From contig JAMCYS010000098.1 in the NCBI GenBank assembly GCA_023473795.1, positions 1 to 64,000 of the forward strand: DNA of 64,000 nucleotides. Reading direction: 5' to 3'. Numbering within the stretch: position 1 is the first letter of the stretch; every line of letters starts with the position of its first letter. Below, piece after piece: positions 2,034 through 63,839 of this stretch. This stretch comes from Chloroflexota bacterium. GTDB lineage: Bacteria; Chloroflexota; UBA6077; FW602-bin22; JAMCYS01. The notes below the pieces were generated by a model. It worked only from the letters and a program-made list of their open reading frames with translations, did no database searches and was not told where the DNA came from. The translations under genes were made by a program, and so were the position numbers.

Positions 2034-3155
2034 TTAGGATACGGCAGGTACCAGCGCGCGCGGGTCTTCCCGCATCTCTTCCACTAAGTTCTGCAGGCGC
2101 TTCTGTACCGGCACGATGTCGTCTATCTCGCCGATCCGGCCGCCGGTGAAGACGAGACCGTTCCGCACCGAGCCGTCAGTGCCGATCTTGAGGCGCCCCT
2201 GCACGGCGTTGGCGAGCGAGCGATAGATACAGTGCGTTTGGGCACGGTCATCGCGATGCGAGCAAACCTTCAGGCAGTTGAGGCAGCCGCGCGCGCTTGG
2301 CGGTAGAAGGGGCAGATCAGACAGGGACTGCTCGACCACGGCGCGACTGGGCATGCCTACCGGGCTGACGTGAGTGACCTTGCTGCCCCGGGACCGCCGC
2401 CAGACTTCCTTCATGGATGGAGAGGCGGAGCACTCGTCAGTCATGGCGAAGAGCGTTCCCAGCTGGACACCGTCCGCCCCCATCTCCAGCAAGCGGCTGA
2501 CTTCCCAACCGTAGCGCAGACCACCCGCGGCCAGTATTGGTCCCCGGAAGCCGCCGTCCCGCAGCGTGCGGTACACGGGCGGGAACAGGTCCCAGGTGGA
2601 AATCTCGGGGTCCTTCGGCCCCAGGTGGCCGCCAGCCTGCCCGCTCTCCACGACGACGCCGGCCACGCTGGGGATGCGGCAGACGAGCGAGGCCAGCTTC
2701 TCGCTGGAGATTATCGCCCAGCCCGGGATGCCGGCCTCCGCCAGGCGGTTGAATGGCCCGCGCGCGAAGCCTGCCCCGATGACAACCACGTCCACGCGCT
2801 CGCGAATGGCCACGTCGAGGATCTGGTCGAATTCGCTGACCGCGAACATCACACCCAGCCCCAGAACCCCGTCGCCGGCCAACTTGCGCCCCTCGCGAAT
2901 CCGCGCCGTCAGCTCCTCGCCGCCGCCCTTACTTGTGAGCACGCCGGAGGCGGCGATCAGGCCAACCCCACCCTGGGCCGCGACCGCCCCCGCGAGCGGC
3001 TCGAGCGATACTCGCACGGCCATCTGTCCTTGCACGATGGGCAACCTCGCCCGCTTCTCACCTACGGTCAGTCCTCGCTCAGCAGCCACTTCACTTCCTA
3101 TCCACCGAATTTGAACCCGCCCAGGCCAGTGCCAGGAGCCCGCGAACCGAGCCAT
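2034..3155 (-). CDS. Nitronate monooxygenase / 2-nitropropane dioxygenase family flavoprotein
   Basis: FMN-dependent TIM-barrel enzyme of the nitronate monooxygenase family, predicted cytosolic. Visible family features: the N-terminal LPIVQGQMAVRVSLEPLAGA strand, GVGLIAASG, the VVESGQAGGHLG loop that carries the catalytic-type His, and FMN phosphate-binding ILAAGGLRYG and GADGVQLGTLFA. A Cys-rich C-terminal segment (CLNCLKVCSHRDDRAQTHC) resembles the extension found in a subset of these proteins and could hold a metal or Fe-S centre. The start is uncertain: ATG at 3155 is used here, but homology begins near 3050, where a TTG at 3044 is also possible. It sits between the membrane protein gene and amrB, all on the minus strand. 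Confidence 0.75.
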   Translation of the reverse strand: MARFAGSWHWPGRVQIRWIGSEVAAERGLTVGEKRARLPIVQGQMAVRVSLEPLAGAVAAQGGVGLIAASGVLTSKGGGEELTARIREGRKLAGDGVLGLGVMFAVSEFDQILDVAIRERVDVVVIGAGFARGPFNRLAEAGIPGWAIISSEKLASLVCRIPSVAGVVVESGQAGGHLGPKDPEISTWDLFPPVYRTLRDGGFRGPILAAGGLRYGWEVSRLLEMGADGVQLGTLFAMTDECSASPSMKEVWRRSRGSKVTHVSPVGMPSRAVVEQSLSDLPLLPPSARGCLNCLKVCSHRDDRAQTHCIYRSLANAVQGRLKIGTDGSVRNGLVFTGGRIGEIDDIVPVQKRLQNLVEEMREDPRALVPAVS

Positions 3156-3190
3156 TCTACCACGCCGCTCCGCTCCCTGGCGCTCTCGGC

Positions 3191-5719
3191 CTATGGCGCT
3201 ACCGTGAGCGCTCCGATCTGGACGTAGCCGCGGGCCGGAGCGGCGCCGTCGACGGCTAGCTGCCTGTTTCCGCCCCCGGTGTCGAAAAGGCCGAAGATGA
3301 TCTGATACTGGCCCGGCGCCAGGTCTGGCGGCACCCGCAACTTCAGTTCGTCCTTGTAGAAGCGGTCGGACTGCCAGAGCCGGGTGAGCATGTTGTTGGC
3401 GCGCAGCCCTTCCGCCCGGGCAACCGGCGCGGCGCCGGGCTGGGTCACCAGGGCCACGTAGGACCCATAGTCCGCGCCCAGGCTGGCCTGGGGCTGCCAG
3501 TATAGTCTCACGTTCAACGTCTCGCCCGGCCGTGCTTGCCTTGCCGGCAGATCGTAGCCCAGCGCCGCTATCCTGCCCTCGAACGAGACGAAGAGCTGGT
3601 TTTGAGCCGGGTGCGCCGTGTTCGTTGGTGATGTGTAGCGGAACCAGTCGGCCTGCCCGTCGAGAAAGGCCAGCTTGCCGGCAAATAGCACCACCGCTAC
3701 CAGGGCGAGCGACCACGCTCCCGTATGGCTCTCCCTCTCTGGGGTCGGCAGGGCGGGGCGGCGCTGGCGGCGGGCTGCCCAGGCCGCGGCCAGGAGCAGG
3801 GCCAGGACTATTGCCGCCATGACGGAGAGGTAATCCCCCGCCTGGGCGAGGGGAGTCTGCTCGAACCGTAACTCCACCACGTGGTCGCCCGCGGGGACGG
3901 TGAACGTCACCCAGCCGAGGTCGTAGCCATCGAAATGGGTCACCGGCGTCTCGCGGCCGTCCACGTAGGCGTGCCAGGCCGGGTAGTAAAGAAGTCGGAA
4001 AAGCAAAGACACGTCCTTGGCCGCGCTCAAGCGGTAGGCCTCGTAGTCTCCCTTCTGGGCCAGCAGGTCGGCCCGCACCTGGGCGTCCTCCGGCAGCATT
4101 GTCCTATCGAGACGCTCCGCGGGCCGGCCATCGGGCAGGTTGCTGCTGCCTTCCTTCTCCACCGGCACCCATTTGGCCCAAATCGGCAGAAACTCCGACC
4201 GCCAGGACGTGCCCAGCGAGCCCGACCAGCGCTCGTAGGCGAGCGCCGAACCCAGCGAGGCGTCGCCCACCCGCTGCTCTGGGCGCGAGAAGTCGGGGAA
4301 GTAGAAGTAGGGGCCCAGCGACAGCAGCAGAGCCAGCGCGGTGGCGGAGAGTAGCACCGGCGGCGCCAACCGGGCTGGCCGACCGCCTCCCCGCGGCAGC
4401 CAGAGCGCGGTCGCGCCCCCCAGTGCCACAACGCCGACGTTGGCCAGGTCCAGGAACCGCCAGGGGAATTGCACCAAGCCGCCAAAGGGCAGTGCCTGCC
4501 AGACGAAGGCGGAGGCGGAGGTGGAGAGGAAGGCAAAGACGGCGGCCAGCGCCCCGAAGAAGGCCATCTCCAGGCTGGCGCCTGTGGGCGGCCGGCGCTT
4601 GGCCAGAGCCAACAAGCCGGCCGCCAGCAGAACTAGCTGCACGATCCCGAGGCGGTGGTCGGGCAGGGCCGCGTTCTCGTGGAGGTCGACCGGCAACTGC
4701 GGCAGGAAAATCTGCTGCCAGGGCAGGAAGTAGTCACGGTAGTCGGCCCCAATCGGCGGCAGCAGGTTCTGGATCTGCACCCACTGCCGTTCTCCCAGGG
4801 CGGGCAACCAGAAGAAGGCGCTCAGCGCCAGCCCCAGGGCGAGGGCGGCGAGCAGGTAGGGCGCCGCCCGCCTGCGCTCGCCAGGCAGCACGAGGACGGC
4901 GCAGTAGGCGGCCAGGGCGCTGCTGCCGTAGAAGGCGGTGAGATTGTGGCTGAGGGCGAGCAGGGCGTAGAGGCCACTGGCCAGGGCCAGGCCGCCCGGG
5001 CCCGGGGCCAGAGATAGCCGTCGCAGCGCCCAGAAGACCCACGGCAGCAGCGCCAGCGCCAGCAATTCGGCCAGGTCGGCGCGCTGATAGGCCTGCAAGA
5101 AGGCCAGCGGCGAGTAGGCATAGGCCAGGGCCGCCAATAGCCCGGCGTTGAGGCCCAGAAGATCACGAGCAAGGAGGAAAGCGCCGGCTGCCGCCAGCAC
5201 CGTGGCGAGCGCCAGGGCCGTCTTCAGACTATCCACGGCGTCGAGGCCGACAACGTGTACCAGCGCCTGCAGGTAATTTCCCAGTGGGGCGTAGAAGTTG
5301 AAGATTGGGTAGCCGAGCCCCTGGACGAAGTCCGGCGCCCAGCGCGGGTAGAAGGTACCCTCGGCCAGGCACGCCTCCAACTGCACGGCGCGGAAGAGGT
5401 GGTAGAGCCCATCCGAGGTCGCTCTCAGGCCCGGCGCCAGCAGCGGCGTCAGCAGGGCCAGCGGCGGCAGCAGCACCGGCAGGAACGGCGCCTGCCGTGA
5501 GCGGACGGCAGGTGCGCCCGTATCGAGTACCGCCGATCCGGCGACTGGCGCCGGCCTGACCGCGGTGGCCGATGGTTCGCCGGGCTGCAAAGTGGCCTGC
5601 ACCGGCTGGTGCGTGGGCCCTTGCCGATTCTTCGGGCTCAACCGCGTTCTCCCAGAGAGGTGTCGGCCGCGGGGCAAACAGGGGGAAGGGCCACGGCCAG
5701 GGCGCCTATCATAGGCCAA
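3191..5719 (-). CDS. Large polytopic membrane protein, PTPS-related/YfhO-like
   Basis: About 842 residues with many hydrophobic helices. It matches the 6-pyruvoyl-tetrahydropterin-synthase-related membrane family, GT-C-like proteins of unknown substrate. Diagnostic segments: SDGLYHLFRAVQLE near residue 102, YPRWAPDFVQGLGYPIFNFY, QRADLAELLALALLPW, ALSHNLTAFY and LALSAFFWLPALGERQ. The C-terminal half has an extracytoplasmic beta-rich part (LLYYPAWHAYVDGRE) before further helices. Probable role in envelope polysaccharide or lipid glycosylation is inferred from YfhO-type relatives. Start is taken as TTG at 5719, but the first ~70 residues are low-complexity and the true start may be internal. A shattered paralogue lies immediately upstream at 6027-7671. 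Confidence 0.75.
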   Translation of the reverse strand: MAYDRRPGRGPSPCLPRGRHLSGRTRLSPKNRQGPTHQPVQATLQPGEPSATAVRPAPVAGSAVLDTGAPAVRSRQAPFLPVLLPPLALLTPLLAPGLRATSDGLYHLFRAVQLEACLAEGTFYPRWAPDFVQGLGYPIFNFYAPLGNYLQALVHVVGLDAVDSLKTALALATVLAAAGAFLLARDLLGLNAGLLAALAYAYSPLAFLQAYQRADLAELLALALLPWVFWALRRLSLAPGPGGLALASGLYALLALSHNLTAFYGSSALAAYCAVLVLPGERRRAAPYLLAALALGLALSAFFWLPALGERQWVQIQNLLPPIGADYRDYFLPWQQIFLPQLPVDLHENAALPDHRLGIVQLVLLAAGLLALAKRRPPTGASLEMAFFGALAAVFAFLSTSASAFVWQALPFGGLVQFPWRFLDLANVGVVALGGATALWLPRGGGRPARLAPPVLLSATALALLLSLGPYFYFPDFSRPEQRVGDASLGSALAYERWSGSLGTSWRSEFLPIWAKWVPVEKEGSSNLPDGRPAERLDRTMLPEDAQVRADLLAQKGDYEAYRLSAAKDVSLLFRLLYYPAWHAYVDGRETPVTHFDGYDLGWVTFTVPAGDHVVELRFEQTPLAQAGDYLSVMAAIVLALLLAAAWAARRQRRPALPTPERESHTGAWSLALVAVVLFAGKLAFLDGQADWFRYTSPTNTAHPAQNQLFVSFEGRIAALGYDLPARQARPGETLNVRLYWQPQASLGADYGSYVALVTQPGAAPVARAEGLRANNMLTRLWQSDRFYKDELKLRVPPDLAPGQYQIIFGLFDTGGGNRQLAVDGAAPARGYVQIGALTVAP

Positions 5720-57274: not shown

Positions 57275-59071
57275 TTACTTGGGCAGGTTCTGGAGCGCCG
57301 TGTACGACGGGCGCGGGCTCCAGTCCGAACGCACGATTCCGTAGGGGTACTTCTCGTCGTTCGCGCCGACCACCGTCTGGAAGTTCAGGTTCCAGACGAA
57401 CATCGCCCCCACCCAGCCCCAGTTCTTGGACATCGTGAAGGCGTCGACCAGGAACTTGGCCTGCTCCGCCTCGGTGTTGTGAGCCCCGTAGGCGTAATCC
57501 GGGTTGGCATTGGCCGTCGACCAGCCTACCTCGGTGAACCACAACTTCTTGTTGCCGTCGCCGTACTTCACCATTATGTCGTGCAACTGCTCGGCACGGC
57601 GGAAGTAGAAGCTGGGGTGCCCCTTCATAGTGGCGTCGTCGTCGGTGGCCTTGTCCATCCAGTCGCCCGGCGGGTTGTCGAACCCGTTCGGGTGAGCGCC
57701 GACCACGTCGCAGTAGTTTTTCATGCCGGCCGCGTACATTTGGTCCATGAAGACCACGTCGTCCACCGCCGTGGCGCCGTCGTTCCAGCCGGTGGGCGTC
57801 AGAGCGCCCGAGACCACGATGGCGCTGGGGTCGGCCGCCTTGACGGCCTGGTAGGCGACGCGCAGCAGGTTGACGTAATCAGCCGCATTCACCGGCTTGC
57901 AGCCCCACTCCGCGCAGGAGAGGTTCTGCTCGTTCCAAATCTCGTAGGCGCCCACGCGGCCCTTGTACCGGGTCGCCATAGCGCTGAGGAAATCGGCCAG
58001 ATCGTTCGGATTCAGGGGCGGCGCGGTAACCCTGTTGCCGCCATTAGCCCACTGGGGCGAGGCGGTGATGCTGAACAGGACCTTGAGCCCGCGCGCCGCG
58101 GCCTGGTCGACGATGGCGTCGGGCGTGTTCCACTCGAACTGGCCCTTGCCGTTCTTCTCGACCCACTCCCAGCGCAGCTGCTGCTTCACCCAGTTGAAGC
58201 CAGCGCCCTTGACCATGTCGAGCGGCTGCGCCGCGGGAACGCCCCAGAGGTGCGCTTGCATGCCGTAGCCGAAACCGCTCGTCGTCACCGGTGGGTTGAC
58301 CACAGGCGGTGGCGGGTTGTTGGTGCCTGGCGGTCCGGCTTCGGGCTGCAGGGCGGTACCGCTAATGATGCCTGCCTGCACGGAGATATCGCCACCGTTG
58401 CCGATGGTCACCTGGCCTGCCGCCGCCCAGGGCACGGCGACCTTCCACTGCTGGATCACGGCCCGCTGCAGGCGGATGGCGTAGTGGTTGCCGTTGTCCA
58501 CCACCTGCGAGGTCGGCAGACCAAAGAGGCGGATGGGGTCGGGTACGGAGTTGTAGACCGCCTTGATGGCCGGGTTGGCGTTCAATAGAGCCAACCGGGC
58601 GGCCACGATCTGGTCCCAGGTCTTGCCCGCGTCAAACGTCGCCGCGTCCAGCGGCTTGGGGGTCGACTTGAAGTTCAGCAGCCAGTCGTCCTTGCCGGCC
58701 AGCGACATCTGGTCGAAGGCGTTGATGAAGTCGACCCGCTGATCCACAGGCTTCCACTGGAAGATGGCCTTCTGGAAGACCTGCGTGACGAAGCCGTCCC
58801 ACATGAAGCGCTGGCTCATCGGGTAGCCCACGATCCGCAGGCCCCCGTCGCGCTTGAATTCGTCCCAGAACGGCACGCCGTCGTTGTTGGTCACGCTGTA
58901 GCCGGCCTGGCTGGTGCCTTCCGGCTGGCCATTCGTCTGCGTGAAGTAGTGGCCGTTGGTAATGTCCCAGTCCAGCGCCGCCGCGCTGGCGCCCATTGGC
59001 AGGGCGGCGAGGACCATGGAGAGCACCATGATCAACGCCAGGACCAGAGACAGTCTGCGGAACCTATGCAC
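57275..59071 (-). CDS. Exported glycosidase-like TIM-barrel protein with N-terminal repeat modules
   Basis: About 598 residues: signal peptide (LALIMVLSMVLAALPMGASA), two diverged copies of the repeat module also found in the VanW protein (WDEFKRDGGLRIVGYPMSQRF with VTQVFQKAIFQW; PDPIRLFGLPTSQVV with RLQRAVIQQW), a Pro-rich linker near 260 and a C-terminal (beta/alpha)8 domain of the GH39/GH5-like type. Proposed acid/base Glu is in YEIWNEQNLS (near 380), proposed nucleophile Glu in LWFTEVGWST (near 515). Substrate unknown. The start is uncertain: GTG at 59071 has AGGAGG nine bases upstream, while ATG at 59080 directly abuts it. A paralogue follows at 59099. Confidence 0.75.
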   Translation of the reverse strand: MHRFRRLSLVLALIMVLSMVLAALPMGASAAALDWDITNGHYFTQTNGQPEGTSQAGYSVTNNDGVPFWDEFKRDGGLRIVGYPMSQRFMWDGFVTQVFQKAIFQWKPVDQRVDFINAFDQMSLAGKDDWLLNFKSTPKPLDAATFDAGKTWDQIVAARLALLNANPAIKAVYNSVPDPIRLFGLPTSQVVDNGNHYAIRLQRAVIQQWKVAVPWAAAGQVTIGNGGDISVQAGIISGTALQPEAGPPGTNNPPPPVVNPPVTTSGFGYGMQAHLWGVPAAQPLDMVKGAGFNWVKQQLRWEWVEKNGKGQFEWNTPDAIVDQAAARGLKVLFSITASPQWANGGNRVTAPPLNPNDLADFLSAMATRYKGRVGAYEIWNEQNLSCAEWGCKPVNAADYVNLLRVAYQAVKAADPSAIVVSGALTPTGWNDGATAVDDVVFMDQMYAAGMKNYCDVVGAHPNGFDNPPGDWMDKATDDDATMKGHPSFYFRRAEQLHDIMVKYGDGNKKLWFTEVGWSTANANPDYAYGAHNTEAEQAKFLVDAFTMSKNWGWVGAMFVWNLNFQTVVGANDEKYPYGIVRSDWSPRPSYTALQNLPK

Positions 59072-59098
59072 CCTGTCCATCCTCCTCACACTTTGCGC

Positions 59099-60289
59099 CT
59101 AGTTCTTAGGCATCGCCTTAAGCGCGCTGTAAGCGGGCCGCGGGGAACCATCCGGATTCGTGACCGCCCAGTAGTACTGCTCTTGATCCTTGTTCATGTC
59201 CGGGTCGGCGATGTAGATGACTATCATCGGGCCGATCCAGTCTGACCATTTCTCCTTTGCGTACTTGAAGGCTCGTACCAGGTAGTCGGCCTGTTCCTGC
59301 GAACTGACGGCGTGCCAGCCATAGGGCGAACCCGGCCGGTTGTCCGTCGTCCAGCCAAACTCCAGCACGGAAACCTTCTTGGCGGCGTCGCCGCTCTCCA
59401 CCATCACCGCCCGTAGGTCCTCGACGTGACGGAAGCAATACACCCTTCCGTTGGCGCCCTCGCCGTGATTGTACTGGGCATCCTTGCTGGCGTCATCAGG
59501 GCTGACCTCGGGCGGCGCCTTGAAGCCGGCGCCGTGTGCGCCCAAAATGTCGAAATACCCCTTGGCCCCCGCGGCGTACATTTGCTTGAGGTATTGGACA
59601 TCGGGCACGGCCACGGGTGGCGGAGCCGTGGTGGGTGAAAGACCGGCGGTGATCACGAGGGACTGCGGATCGGCCTTCTTGATCGCCTGGTAGGCCGCCT
59701 TGAGCAGAGCCACGTACTCGGCAGCGCTGGGCGCCTTGTTGCCCCACTCTCGGCTCAGGTTAGGCTCGTTCCAGATTTCGTAGGCGGCGATGGTCCCGTA
59801 GGGCGAGCCGGCCTTGTAGCGCTCCGCCATGGCGCCCACGAAGTCGGCGTAGTCCCGCGGGTTGTCGGGTGGAGCGGTTGCCGCGCCGTACTTCTTGCCC
59901 GTCGCCCACTCCGGCTGGTTGTCCACGCGAGCGATCACCTTCAGTCCGGCTTTGTTGGCCGCCTGCACCAGCTGGTCGGCCCGGACGAAGTTGAGGTCCC
60001 CCTTGGCCTTCGTCTCCATGTAGCGCCACTCGAAGCGCTGCTTTATCCAGCCAAAGCCCGCGTCCTTGGCCAGGGCGATGTCCCGATCCGCCACGCCGCC
60101 CGACATCCAGAGCTGCGTGTGAAAGCCGTAGCCCAGTCCGGACGCGCTGCCGGCCGCGGGCGTCGTGGCCGGTGCCGGAGTAGCCGCCGGCGCGGCAGAG
60201 GTACAGCCGAAGGCGCTCAGACCGACCAGCAGCGCCAGCAGCGCCCCGAAATAGCGGCCGGGCGACCACGGGCAGACCGATACCTTCAC
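59099..60289 (-). CDS. Exported glycosidase-like TIM-barrel lipoprotein
   Basis: About 396 residues: a short signal segment (FGALLALLVGLSAFGC), lipobox-like Cys, an Ala/Pro/Thr-rich linker and a TIM barrel of the same GH39/GH5-like class as the downstream gene but without its repeat modules. Proposed acid/base Glu in YEIWNEPNLS (near 175); nucleophile Glu in VLEFGWTTD (near 310). Start GTG at 60289 has GAGGAG eight bases upstream; the open frame continues to 60436 without homology. The two paralogues lie on the same strand, this one upstream, and probably act on the same extracellular polysaccharide. Confidence 0.75.
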   Translation of the reverse strand: MKVSVCPWSPGRYFGALLALLVGLSAFGCTSAAPAATPAPATTPAAGSASGLGYGFHTQLWMSGGVADRDIALAKDAGFGWIKQRFEWRYMETKAKGDLNFVRADQLVQAANKAGLKVIARVDNQPEWATGKKYGAATAPPDNPRDYADFVGAMAERYKAGSPYGTIAAYEIWNEPNLSREWGNKAPSAAEYVALLKAAYQAIKKADPQSLVITAGLSPTTAPPPVAVPDVQYLKQMYAAGAKGYFDILGAHGAGFKAPPEVSPDDASKDAQYNHGEGANGRVYCFRHVEDLRAVMVESGDAAKKVSVLEFGWTTDNRPGSPYGWHAVSSQEQADYLVRAFKYAKEKWSDWIGPMIVIYIADPDMNKDQEQYYWAVTNPDGSPRPAYSALKAMPKN

Positions 60290-60625
60290 AATCCAACTCC
60301 TCGGTAGGTCTAGCACGGCATCCATGACGAGCGAACTGCCCGCTGGTTCCGCGCTGGCGGGGCGGACAGTGGGCGATAGCAGCGCCGCCCTCGCCGCGCC
60401 GGTCGCGTCCCAACTGGCCGGCGAGCGGTACGGCACCCCGCGGCCGTTGGCTCAAAACGCCGGCATTATAGCAGTCGGTCGGTGGGGTCACAACAGTACT
60501 TTGTTCTCAACTTCGGCCATCGCCGGTATTCTCGCTGAGCAGGGGCTACCGGTACTTCCCTGCCTCGCTTCGCGCGCTATAATAGCCCCAACCGTGGAGC
60601 AATATGGACAAGGAGTGAACTGGCG
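60290..60625. other. Divergent promoter region
   Basis: About 335 bp between the glycosidase-like gene (minus) and the URO-D-family gene (plus). A plus-strand TATAAT is at 60578-60583. No other element is clear. Confidence 0.5.
60578..60583 (+). promoter_or_regulatory. TATAAT -10 box of the URO-D-family gene
   Basis: A perfect TATAAT lies 43 bp before the ATG at 60626. No canonical -35 is found at 17 bp; a good start for an RNA with a short leader. Confidence 0.4.
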
Positions 60626-61780
60626 ATGGCGGCACAGATGACCCACCGTGAGAGAGTGCTCACCGCTTTGGCCCACAAGGAGCCGGACCGCGTGCCCATA
60701 GACCTGGGCAGCACCCGCGATAGCTCGGTCCACGTCGACGGGCACGCCCGGCTCCGCCAGCACTTCGGCCTGGCGGGCGGCGAGGACATCCTTACCGACA
60801 GGATGATGCGTCCCGTGGTGGTGGACGAGCGCATCCTGCGGCGGCTCGACGTCGACACGCGCGGACTCTTCCTGGGCGGCCCGGAGAATTCGCGCGATAC
60901 CATGCTGGGCCCGACCCGCTGGCGCGACGAGTGGGGCGTCGAGAGGGAGATGCCGCTCGGCTCGCTCTACTACGACCTGGTGCGCAGTCCGCTGGCCGGC
61001 GAGGTCACCATCCAGGACATAGTCAACTATCCCTGGCCCGACCCCGAGGACCCGGGGCGCTACCGCGGCCTGGTGGAGCGCGCCAAGGAACTCCGTGCCA
61101 ATACCGGCTGCGCCATCGTCCTCAACTCGGCTTCGGGCTTCGTCCACGTCTCCCAGTACCTGCGTGGCTTCCAGGATTGGTTCACCGACCTCCTGCTGGA
61201 CCCCAATCTGGCCGTGGCGCTGATGGACGCCATTTGCGAGATCAACATGGCCATCGCCACCAAGGCCCTTTCCCTGGTGCGCGACTACGTGGACATCGTC
61301 CTCACCGGCGACGACGTCGGCCACCAGAACGGCCCGCTCGTCTCTCCCGAGCTCTATCGCAAGCTGATCAAGCCGGGCCACAAGCGGTATTTCGACATGG
61401 TGAACTCGCTAACGGACGCCAAGGTGCTCTACCACTCCTGCGGTGACGTCTACCCCTTCATCCCCGACTTCATCGAGATGGGCATCGACGTCCTCAACCC
61501 CATCCAGGTGTCGGCCGCCGAGATGGACCCGGCTCGGCTGAAGAAAGAATACGGCGACGAGATGGCCTTCTGGGGCGGAGTGGACTCGTTCCGGGTGCTG
61601 CCCTTCGGCACTGTGGAGGACGTCCAGCGCGAGGTGGAGCTGCGCATCCAGCAAATGGCCCACGGCGGCGGCTACATCGTCAACGCCGTGCACAACATCC
61701 AGCCCGACGTGCCGTCCGAGAACATCGTGGCCATGTTCGACCACGCCCGCGAGTATGGCAGGTACCCGCTGCCGCGGTGA
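60626..61780 (+). CDS. Uroporphyrinogen decarboxylase (URO-D) family protein
   Basis: 384 residues of the URO-D/MtaA/CmuA superfamily, N-terminus MTHRERVLTALAHKEPDRVP, typical of the methyltransferase-like or unassigned branch and not of true HemE. The C-terminal half has DIVLTGDDVGHQNGPLVSPE, VLYHSCGDVYPFIPDFIEMG (His and Cys as possible metal ligands) and DVLNPIQVSAAEMDP. This motif set occurs in cobalamin-linked methyltransferases and in proteins of unknown role. It is the first gene of a short group with a DapA-like gene and a phosphotriesterase-like gene. ATG at 60626 has AAGGAG upstream. Confidence 0.85.
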   Translation: MAAQMTHRERVLTALAHKEPDRVPIDLGSTRDSSVHVDGHARLRQHFGLAGGEDILTDRMMRPVVVDERILRRLDVDTRGLFLGGPENSRDTMLGPTRWRDEWGVEREMPLGSLYYDLVRSPLAGEVTIQDIVNYPWPDPEDPGRYRGLVERAKELRANTGCAIVLNSASGFVHVSQYLRGFQDWFTDLLLDPNLAVALMDAICEINMAIATKALSLVRDYVDIVLTGDDVGHQNGPLVSPELYRKLIKPGHKRYFDMVNSLTDAKVLYHSCGDVYPFIPDFIEMGIDVLNPIQVSAAEMDPARLKKEYGDEMAFWGGVDSFRVLPFGTVEDVQREVELRIQQMAHGGGYIVNAVHNIQPDVPSENIVAMFDHAREYGRYPLPR

Positions 61781-61823: not shown

Positions 61824-62759
61824 CTACGAACGTGGCGCGTTCGTTACCGCTACCCCGAGCTGTTCCTGCAGCACCACCGCTAGGCGCTCCATCTCCTCTG
61901 AGTCTAGAGACCGCAAAGGCGGCCGGGGCGGGCCAGCCGGGTGTCCCAGCAGGGCCAGCGCCGCCTTGCTGTAGGTGACGAAGGCCGGCCGGCCCGCCGC
62001 CAGCTCCGGCTTGAGCAGCGCCCGCAGGCGGCGCAGGCGCCCGCTCAGCTCGCGCACCCGGACGGCGTCGCCCTCGCGGGCGGCGACCCACAGGCGCAGC
62101 ATGAACTCGGGGGCGAAGTTGGGGGAGGCGGTCATAAAGCCGGCGGCGCCAACCAGCAGCTCGGGGCCGAGCACGTCCTCGGCGCCGCAGAAGACGGGCA
62201 CCTTCTCGCCGTAGCGCTCCAGCAGGGTCTGGAAGTGGTCTAGGTTGAGGCTGGTCTCCTCGATGCCCAGGAAGTCCGGCCGCTCCGCCAGCCTGTCCAG
62301 AACCGGATAAGGGACCTCCGTGCCGTTGGTCTCCACCATGAACGGCAGACCGGAGGGCGCCGCCGCGGCCAGCAGATAGTCCAGCGCCTCTTGCTCTCCG
62401 GGCCGGATGCCCGCCGGCAGGATCACCTTGACAGCGTGGAGCCCGGCCTCGCGGGCGGCCTGCCCCAGCTCGGCGGCGCTCGCCAGGGCGCTTTCCGATA
62501 TCTTGCCCAGCAGCAGCGCCCGCCCCCCAGCTGTCTGAGCTGCCCGGTGGAAGAGAGCCTTCTTCTCCGCCATGGTTAGCGCCCAAGACTCCCCCACTAG
62601 GTCGGCCAGCAGCAGCGCCTCGATGCCCGCGGCCAGCAGCCGCTCCAGGTGGGACGTGAAGGCGGCCCAATCGATCGCCAGGTCGGTGGCAAACGGGGTT
62701 ATCACCGGCACGACAGGGCCGCGTAGGGCCCGGCGCAGGCCACTATCAATTGCGCACAT
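61824..62759 (-). CDS. DapA-family protein lacking catalytic Lys, Tyr and Thr motifs
   Basis: 311 residues with the dihydrodipicolinate synthase/N-acetylneuraminate lyase fold. The family frame is clear: GPVVPVITPFATDLAIDWAA, ADLVGESWALTMAEKKALF, LHAVKVILPAGIRPGEQEA and MTASPNFAPEF. But the Schiff-base Lys in the (V/I)GIK(E/D) motif is Glu167 (FLGIEETSLNL), the Tyr of LYNxP reads VETNG (142-146), and the GTTGE loop reads LVGES. Classical aldolase chemistry therefore looks impossible. Start ATG at 62759 has GGGAG nine bases upstream. It lies between the URO-D-like gene and, divergently, the phosphotriesterase-like gene. Confidence 0.8.
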   Translation of the reverse strand: MCAIDSGLRRALRGPVVPVITPFATDLAIDWAAFTSHLERLLAAGIEALLLADLVGESWALTMAEKKALFHRAAQTAGGRALLLGKISESALASAAELGQAAREAGLHAVKVILPAGIRPGEQEALDYLLAAAAPSGLPFMVETNGTEVPYPVLDRLAERPDFLGIEETSLNLDHFQTLLERYGEKVPVFCGAEDVLGPELLVGAAGFMTASPNFAPEFMLRLWVAAREGDAVRVRELSGRLRRLRALLKPELAAGRPAFVTYSKAALALLGHPAGPPRPPLRSLDSEEMERLAVVLQEQLGVAVTNAPRS

Positions 62760-62912
62760 ATTTGTCGACTCCCGGGGCCGGTTTGCTATCCGGCTGTCCC
62801 AGCCCCCACGCTGGATTATACGGTCGGGCAGCGCCCGCCACAACGGGCCCGCGGCTCGTGACAAGGCCGCCGCAAAGTGGCAGAATAGGGCCAACTTCGC
62901 CAGGAGGAAGGA

Positions 62913-63839
62913 ATGGCTCCTATCGTCCGCACCGTGCGGGGCGACGTCGACCCCGCCGACCTGGGCATAACCCTCTGCCACGAGCACGTCATCGTCGACG
63001 CCCGCGAGGGCTTTGCCGACCCCGATATCTACTTGGACGATCCTGAGGAGGTGGCCGAGGACCTGCGTGAGGCCGCGCGCTACGGCCTGCGCACGGTCGT
63101 GGACGTGACCAACGTCGGCATGCACCGCCGCCCGCTTGCCGTGCGGCGGGTTGCCGAGCTGAGCGGACTGCACGTCGTCGCCGGCGCCGGCTTCTACCAC
63201 GGCCACTTCCTGCCGGACTACGTGCACGAAATGGACGTGGACGAGCTGGCCGCGAGCATCGTGCGCGAGGTCGAAGTCGGCATCGAGGATAGCGGCGTGC
63301 GCGCCGGGGTGATTGGGGAAGTTGGGGCCAGCGAGGGCGGCCTGACGCCCACCGAACGGCGGCTCTTCCTGGCCACGGGCCAGGCGCAGCGGCTCACCGG
63401 CGCCCCGGTGGTCACCCACACGGCCCTCGGCCAGCAGGCCATGGAGCAGCTGGACCTGCTGGAGGACGGCGGGGCTGATCCCACCAAGGTGCTAGTGGGC
63501 CACATGGACTGCAACCTGGACCTCGCCGCCCACCTGGCGGTGGCCGAGCGCGGTGCCTTCGTCGGCATCGACCGCATCAACGCCCGCAAGTATCCCTGGG
63601 ACGACAAGCGCGTCGAGCTGGTGCTAGGCCTGGCCGAACGCGGCTACGCCGGCCGCGTCATTCTCTCGCACGACCTCTCACGCAAGTCGCGCCTGCTCAA
63701 GAACGGCGGCACCGGCTACGGCTTCATCCTACGGGAGTTCGTGCCCGCCCTGCGCCGGGCCGGCGCGGACGACAACCTGCTGCACCTCATCTTGGTGGAG
63801 AACCCGTGCCATCTGCTGGCCTTCGCCCCGCGGCAGTAG
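62913..63839 (+). CDS. Phosphotriesterase-family metal-dependent hydrolase
   Basis: 308 residues, TIM-barrel amidohydrolase. Metal ligands visible: LCHEHV (H23, H25), a bridging residue in GVIGEVGASEGGLTPTER, VVTHTALG, LVGHMDCN and the Asp of ILSHDLSRKS. The Glu in GEVGAS suggests a phosphotriesterase-homology-protein or lactonase-like member rather than the carbamylated-Lys type. ATG at 62913 has AGGAGGAAGG upstream. Substrate unknown. It is divergent from the DapA-like gene, with a ~150-bp shared promoter region; the two may act in one pathway. Confidence 0.85.
   Translation: MAPIVRTVRGDVDPADLGITLCHEHVIVDAREGFADPDIYLDDPEEVAEDLREAARYGLRTVVDVTNVGMHRRPLAVRRVAELSGLHVVAGAGFYHGHFLPDYVHEMDVDELAASIVREVEVGIEDSGVRAGVIGEVGASEGGLTPTERRLFLATGQAQRLTGAPVVTHTALGQQAMEQLDLLEDGGADPTKVLVGHMDCNLDLAAHLAVAERGAFVGIDRINARKYPWDDKRVELVLGLAERGYAGRVILSHDLSRKSRLLKNGGTGYGFILREFVPALRRAGADDNLLHLILVENPCHLLAFAPRQ

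Follow-up and report, generated by a model that had tools for sequence, protein, structure and literature searches.

The DHDPS-like gene and its neighbors

The window, the whole 64,000-nucleotide stretch of Chloroflexota DNA that was analyzed, contains a gene for a protein of the DHDPS/NAL superfamily, flanked by a convergent and a divergent gene (Table 1). The reading frame starts with ATG, sits inside a longer open frame and has a normal codon bias; only at its two ends is the third-position signal slightly weaker. The Pfam DHDPS profile (PF00701) matched the protein from end to end (residues 13-299; 124.1 bits against a cut-off of 22.1, E 6e-36). An AlphaFold2 model, built with 37 sequences (the window protein and homologues), had a mean pLDDT of 95.2 and a pTM of 0.92, and the best PDB matches of this model in a fold search were all DHDPS/NAL enzymes, with TM scores of 0.81-0.88. 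The protein has the TIM-barrel fold of the superfamily and is probably a folded, maintained member of it.

Table 1. Features of the DHDPS-like gene and the adjoining region
Feature	Position	Strand	Basis
DHDPS/NAL-superfamily protein, 311 aa, without the beta6 Schiff-base Lys	61824..62759	-	ORF, Pfam, AlphaFold2, PDB fold search
Glu167 (codon GAG) at the catalytic Lys161 position, end of beta6	62259..62261	-	Alignment and codons
Glu143 (codon GAG) at the catalytic Tyr133 position, end of beta5	62331..62333	-	Alignment and codons
Lys111 (codon AAG) on beta4; column otherwise mostly Leu/Met/Ala	62427..62429	-	Alignment and codons
Lys86 (codon AAG) for a conserved Gly, end of beta3	62502..62504	-	Alignment and codons
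Asp53-Leu54-Val55 for Gly43-Thr44-Thr45 of the GTTGE loop	62595..62603	-	Alignment and codons
URO-D / MtaA-CmuA-like protein, 384 aa, convergent neighbor	60626..61780	+	Pfam URO-D, 96 bits
PTE-family hydrolase, E. coli PHP type, 308 aa, divergent neighbor	62913..63839	+	Pfam PTE, 251 bits
Shared upstream region, 153 bp	62760..62912		Sequence scan

The protein stayed below the cut-offs of the more specific family profiles. It scored 106 bits with the DapA profile TIGR00674, against a cut-off of 206.15, and 44-91 bits with the NCBIfam profiles KdgD, NanA, Arch_KDGaldase and HpaI-NOT-DapA, whose cut-offs are 278-397. Its genome has two paralogues of the DHDPS family that carry the lysine, neither of them above the DapA cut-off, and the 96%-complete assembly gave no match to dapB in a search whose control was positive in 11 of 14 genomes. 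A role of the window protein as the DapA of lysine biosynthesis (4-hydroxy-tetrahydrodipicolinate synthase) was rejected on its score, half of the cut-off, and on the missing dapB match. Since the paralogues also fall below the cut-off and dapB is unmatched, the protein is unlikely to act in diaminopimelate synthesis. By the same evidence, with all three of the DHDPS-family genes found below the DapA cut-off, the organism probably makes lysine by another route or takes it up.

The closest solved relative of the URO-D-like neighbor is a methylcobalamin:CoM methyltransferase, and those of the PTE-family neighbor are the PHP structures 1bf6 and 4lef (E ~4e-58). A scan of the region between the two divergent genes gave one sigma-70-like match at 62858-62886, oriented toward the PTE gene, and found neither inverted repeats nor operator-like palindromes. 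From the position of the gene beside these neighbors, the sequence-only reading had suggested that the protein may have a new role. The neighborhood comparison did not bear out a role shared by the three genes. Outside the genome of the window, no PTE or DapA homologue among the fetched loci is accompanied within ~1.5 kb by a second gene of the three. A conserved three-gene cluster likewise found no support, as two of the three genes occurred together in no other fetched locus, each covering ~1.5 kb on either side. Recoded stops in the PTE homologues were also discarded as an idea; in the three loci that were read, the flags for internal stops were traced to the ordinary termination codon, which lies where the match ends. 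Elsewhere in the window, two adjacent minus-strand genes (57275-59089 and 59099-60436) encode GH5/GH39-like glycoside hydrolases with similar catalytic regions; both are apparently secreted and may have arisen by tandem duplication.

Substitutions at the active site

Catalytic positions (Lys161, Tyr133 and Thr44-Thr45) are given in the numbering of E. coli DapA. The lysine on beta6 and the tyrosine on beta5 are described as the catalytic pair of the DHDPS/NAL superfamily (PMC5114784; PMC11201819). These two residues, together with the Thr/Ser of the GxxGE loop that serves the substrate carboxylate, mark the superfamily as class I aldolases, and the window protein has none of the three. The motif GIEET aligns Glu167 with the column of the catalytic lysine, and the motif LPFMVE aligns Glu143 with that of the tyrosine without a gap. 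In the motif ADLVGE, the Gly-Glu of the GxxGE loop is kept and the Thr-Thr has become Leu-Val. Tyr106-Tyr107 and Arg138 are missing as well. These absences set the protein apart from DapA, which it otherwise resembles in the whole-length match to PF00701, the Gly-Glu of the loop, the conserved glycines and the C-terminal Lys265/Arg279/Pro281 pattern. Because the site for the pyruvate carboxylate, Thr44-Thr45, is gone, pyruvate itself may not bind.

The rarity of these changes was assessed in a survey of 158 distinct DHDPS-family homologues, comprising the best matches in the phylum, most members in the class of the window genome (29 genomes) and the named loci of a search with the alignment of L005, the nearest relative. 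Column 167 holds Lys in 154 of them. Of the other four, L124 has Glu there, L140 Leu and L151 Ile; in L105 the motif GKIEAA is displaced by one residue, so that the lysine is probably still present. The tyrosine column reads Tyr in 116 homologues, Gln in 30, Phe in nine and Ala, Ser or Ile in one each; Glu occurs there in none. The window protein keeps 24 of the 29 columns conserved at ≥70%, and is thus not generally degraded. It departs from them at A48, D53, K86, E167 and V235, and positions 53, 86 and 167 belong to the pocket, as known or as judged from the alignment. The loss of the lysine, of the tyrosine and of the Thr-Thr, all reported in the sequence-only reading, was therefore upheld, as was its statement that the fold elements are intact, which the predicted structure and the conserved columns both support. 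Our literature search found no paper on a DHDPS without the lysine.

The lysine was not simply lost, since the protein, which has seven lysines in total, has gained one on each of two neighboring strands: Lys111 on beta4 and Lys86 on beta3. Lys at column 86 is found in none of the 158 homologues, which have Gly, Asn, Thr, His, Ser or Gln there, and column 111 tolerates Gln, Ser and His. This tolerance of polar residues suggests that both columns face the barrel core or pocket. A single sequencing or point error was considered and rejected as the source of the changes. Lys to Glu at 167 is a one-base change, but at least two bases each must differ for Tyr to Glu and for Gly to Lys, and the frame is otherwise normal. 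Distant homologues do have Lys at this position, but changes spread over several codons, in a protein that is otherwise well preserved, make a local sequencing error unlikely.

Relatives with and without the lysine

No close orthologues of the window protein were found in its family, which consists of one genome, in the 29 genomes of its class, in a sample of 400 genomes of the phylum, or in 298 genomes of a second class and 41 of a third. A first scan of genome contigs and a search of viral contigs gave no match, and matches on plasmids were 23-32% identical. A second contig scan with the L005 alignment returned 17 loci, all of which have Lys where the residue was readable (L053 is fragmentary).

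The nearest relative, L005 (JAUJPG010000008.1, from a Chloroflexota MAG; L038, with the same match on a contig of equal length, 157,509, was taken as one record with it), is a normal Lys enzyme with 34% identity to the window protein. Like the window protein, it lacks Tyr106-Tyr107 and Arg138 and has a C-terminal LLxPExxAGxPA...KAAL segment. FastTree grouped the two with a support of 99. A grouping of two long branches, as here, may be spurious; the shared C-terminal segment supports this one independently. In contrast to the window protein, L005 has kept Lys167, the tyrosine, Gly86 and Met111, which indicates that the lineage of the window protein changed all four positions after the split. 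Its gene adjoins two amidohydrolase-like genes rather than URO-D and PTE genes.

Lysine loss was found in three lineages of one class: the window protein, L124, and the pair L140/L151. L124, from a genome of the same order (G129), shares with the window protein the Glu at the Lys161 column, Lys111 on beta4 and Thr169, and is also an orphan, as a search for its close orthologues found none. The two proteins are only 24% identical, and L124 differs in keeping the beta5 tyrosine and Arg138 and in having no Lys86. The gene for L124 lies at G129:C71:1179-2424, with a LysR-type regulator-like frame divergent from it (2624-3601 in the wider locus, L188).

L140 and L151 resemble the window protein in having independently lost both the lysine and the tyrosine and in having an ionizable residue at column 111. 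They differ in the residues themselves, with Leu or Ile at 167 and His or Glu at 111, and in their link to an active-looking paralogue. The L140 gene (G038:C158:16650-17904) is convergent to that of L130, and the L151 gene (G056:C221:10308-11559) to that of L144; both L130 and L144 carry the lysine and the tyrosine. L140 and L151 are 65% identical, and the Nei-Gojobori dN/dS was ~0.28 for this pair and 0.17 for the pair with the lysine, both rough values at a dS of ~1. Both appear to evolve under purifying selection, which suggests that L130/L140 and L144/L151 are catalytic/non-catalytic pairs.

When all columns were scanned for a gain of charged residues in the members without the lysine, column 111 ranked first. 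An ionizable residue is present there in all four such proteins (Lys in the window protein and L124, His in L140, Glu in L151) and in one of 155 proteins with the lysine (Fisher 2e-7). The scan was run after Lys111 had been seen in L124, so the rank among all columns deserves more weight than this raw p-value. With L140 and L151 counted as one, the link across three lineages has a p-value of 6e-6, or 0.002 after multiplication by ~285 columns. Lys111 itself occurs only in the window protein and L124, the two proteins with Glu167.

Possible functions of the altered pocket

The reading we prefer, to which we give a probability of roughly one in three, is that the active site was rebuilt with a displaced lysine, as in transaldolase, and that the protein may perform related chemistry rather than being dead. 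In its favor, L124, the only other homologue with Glu167, also has Lys111 despite its 24% identity. Lys111, or else Lys86, would serve as the displaced amine and form an imine with the substrate, a keto acid or keto sugar. Lys86, unique to the window protein, is a second candidate amine that sequence alone does not separate from Lys111. Glu167 and Glu143 could then act as acid-base residues, like the Glu beside the Schiff-base lysine in many class I aldolases. Imine formation and any substrate are putative parts of this scheme. A Glu adjacent to the lysine aids imine formation in most aldolases (PMC2728841), and transaldolase carries its lysine on a different beta-strand from that used by other class I aldolases (PMC3962226). 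The likeness to transaldolase would be one of working principle only, with a (beta/alpha)8 barrel, a Schiff-base lysine on a different strand and carboxylates nearby; no sequence relation to transaldolase was detected, the Pfam and NCBIfam profiles that matched the window protein being all DHDPS-family, and it is not a member of the transaldolase family. For a displaced lysine, KDPG aldolase is said to offer a precedent from directed evolution.

Several findings weigh against a displaced lysine. The coupling comes from four sequences without the lysine in three lineages, and in two of these sequences residue 111 is His or Glu, which are incapable of forming an imine. Both the window protein and L124 are orphans without close orthologues, and the pairing of a buried Lys with a Glu could have a structural role only. 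That the Schiff-base lysine moved naturally from beta6 to beta4 within the superfamily at least twice, in the window protein (with a second lysine on beta3) and in L124, with Glu left at the old site, is the rather unlikely broader form of the proposal. The sequence-only reading had stated that such a protein cannot do normal aldolase chemistry. This holds for canonical catalysis by Lys161 and Tyr133, but is too strong as a general statement, given the two new lysines at columns that appear to face the core and the co-occurrence of Lys111 with the loss of Lys167.

Another explanation, doubtful but close behind in our estimate, is an enzyme without a Schiff base, in which a pocket rich in Lys and Glu would perform acid-base or metal-assisted chemistry (as an isomerase, epimerase, hydratase or lactone-acid lyase) and Lys111 and Lys86 would only pair with the new carboxylates. 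Three new carboxylates, the two Glu and Asp53, lie near the C-terminal ends of beta2, beta5 and beta6, and the L140/L151 lineage has no amine at 111, yet its dN/dS of ~0.28 points to constraint. Against this, neither a metal-binding His nor a known isomerase motif was recognized in the window protein.

Less probable is a pseudoenzyme, a binding or regulatory protein that is perhaps the partner of a catalytic paralogue. The apparently selected L140 and L151 adjoin proteins with the lysine in two other genera of the class, and the genome of the window has two DHDPS-family paralogues with the lysine. However, these paralogues are on other contigs and are only 22-28% identical, and charged residues newly present at several pocket sites would be unusual for a simple loss of function. 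A decaying gene, or an assembly or binning artefact in one metagenome-assembled genome, is improbable. In its favor, no close orthologue appeared in any set searched and the genome comprises 170 contigs with 4.8% contamination. Against it, the frame is full-length with normal codon bias, the structural columns are mostly intact, the fold is confident, several pocket codons carry multi-base changes, and the longest branches of the tree do not include its end branch (0.88).

The displaced-lysine proposal concerns a single orphan gene, joined by a suggestive statistical companion, and the case is somewhat more interesting than the sequence-only reading stated. In the DHDPS/NAL superfamily, the beta6 lysine is regarded as the defining residue. 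Natural members in which the fold is retained and this lysine moved or dropped would show migration of the catalytic nucleophile within the barrel, which is otherwise deduced by setting transaldolase against other class I aldolases. Genes of this kind also call for caution with annotation as dihydrodipicolinate synthase.

A separate variation in the survey concerned the beta5 tyrosine. A sizeable subgroup with Gln in its place (xxQD or xxQN on beta5; 30 of 158 homologues) has kept the lysine, often in a YxKxE motif on beta6; examples are L104, L108, L116, L122, L131, L134 and L146.
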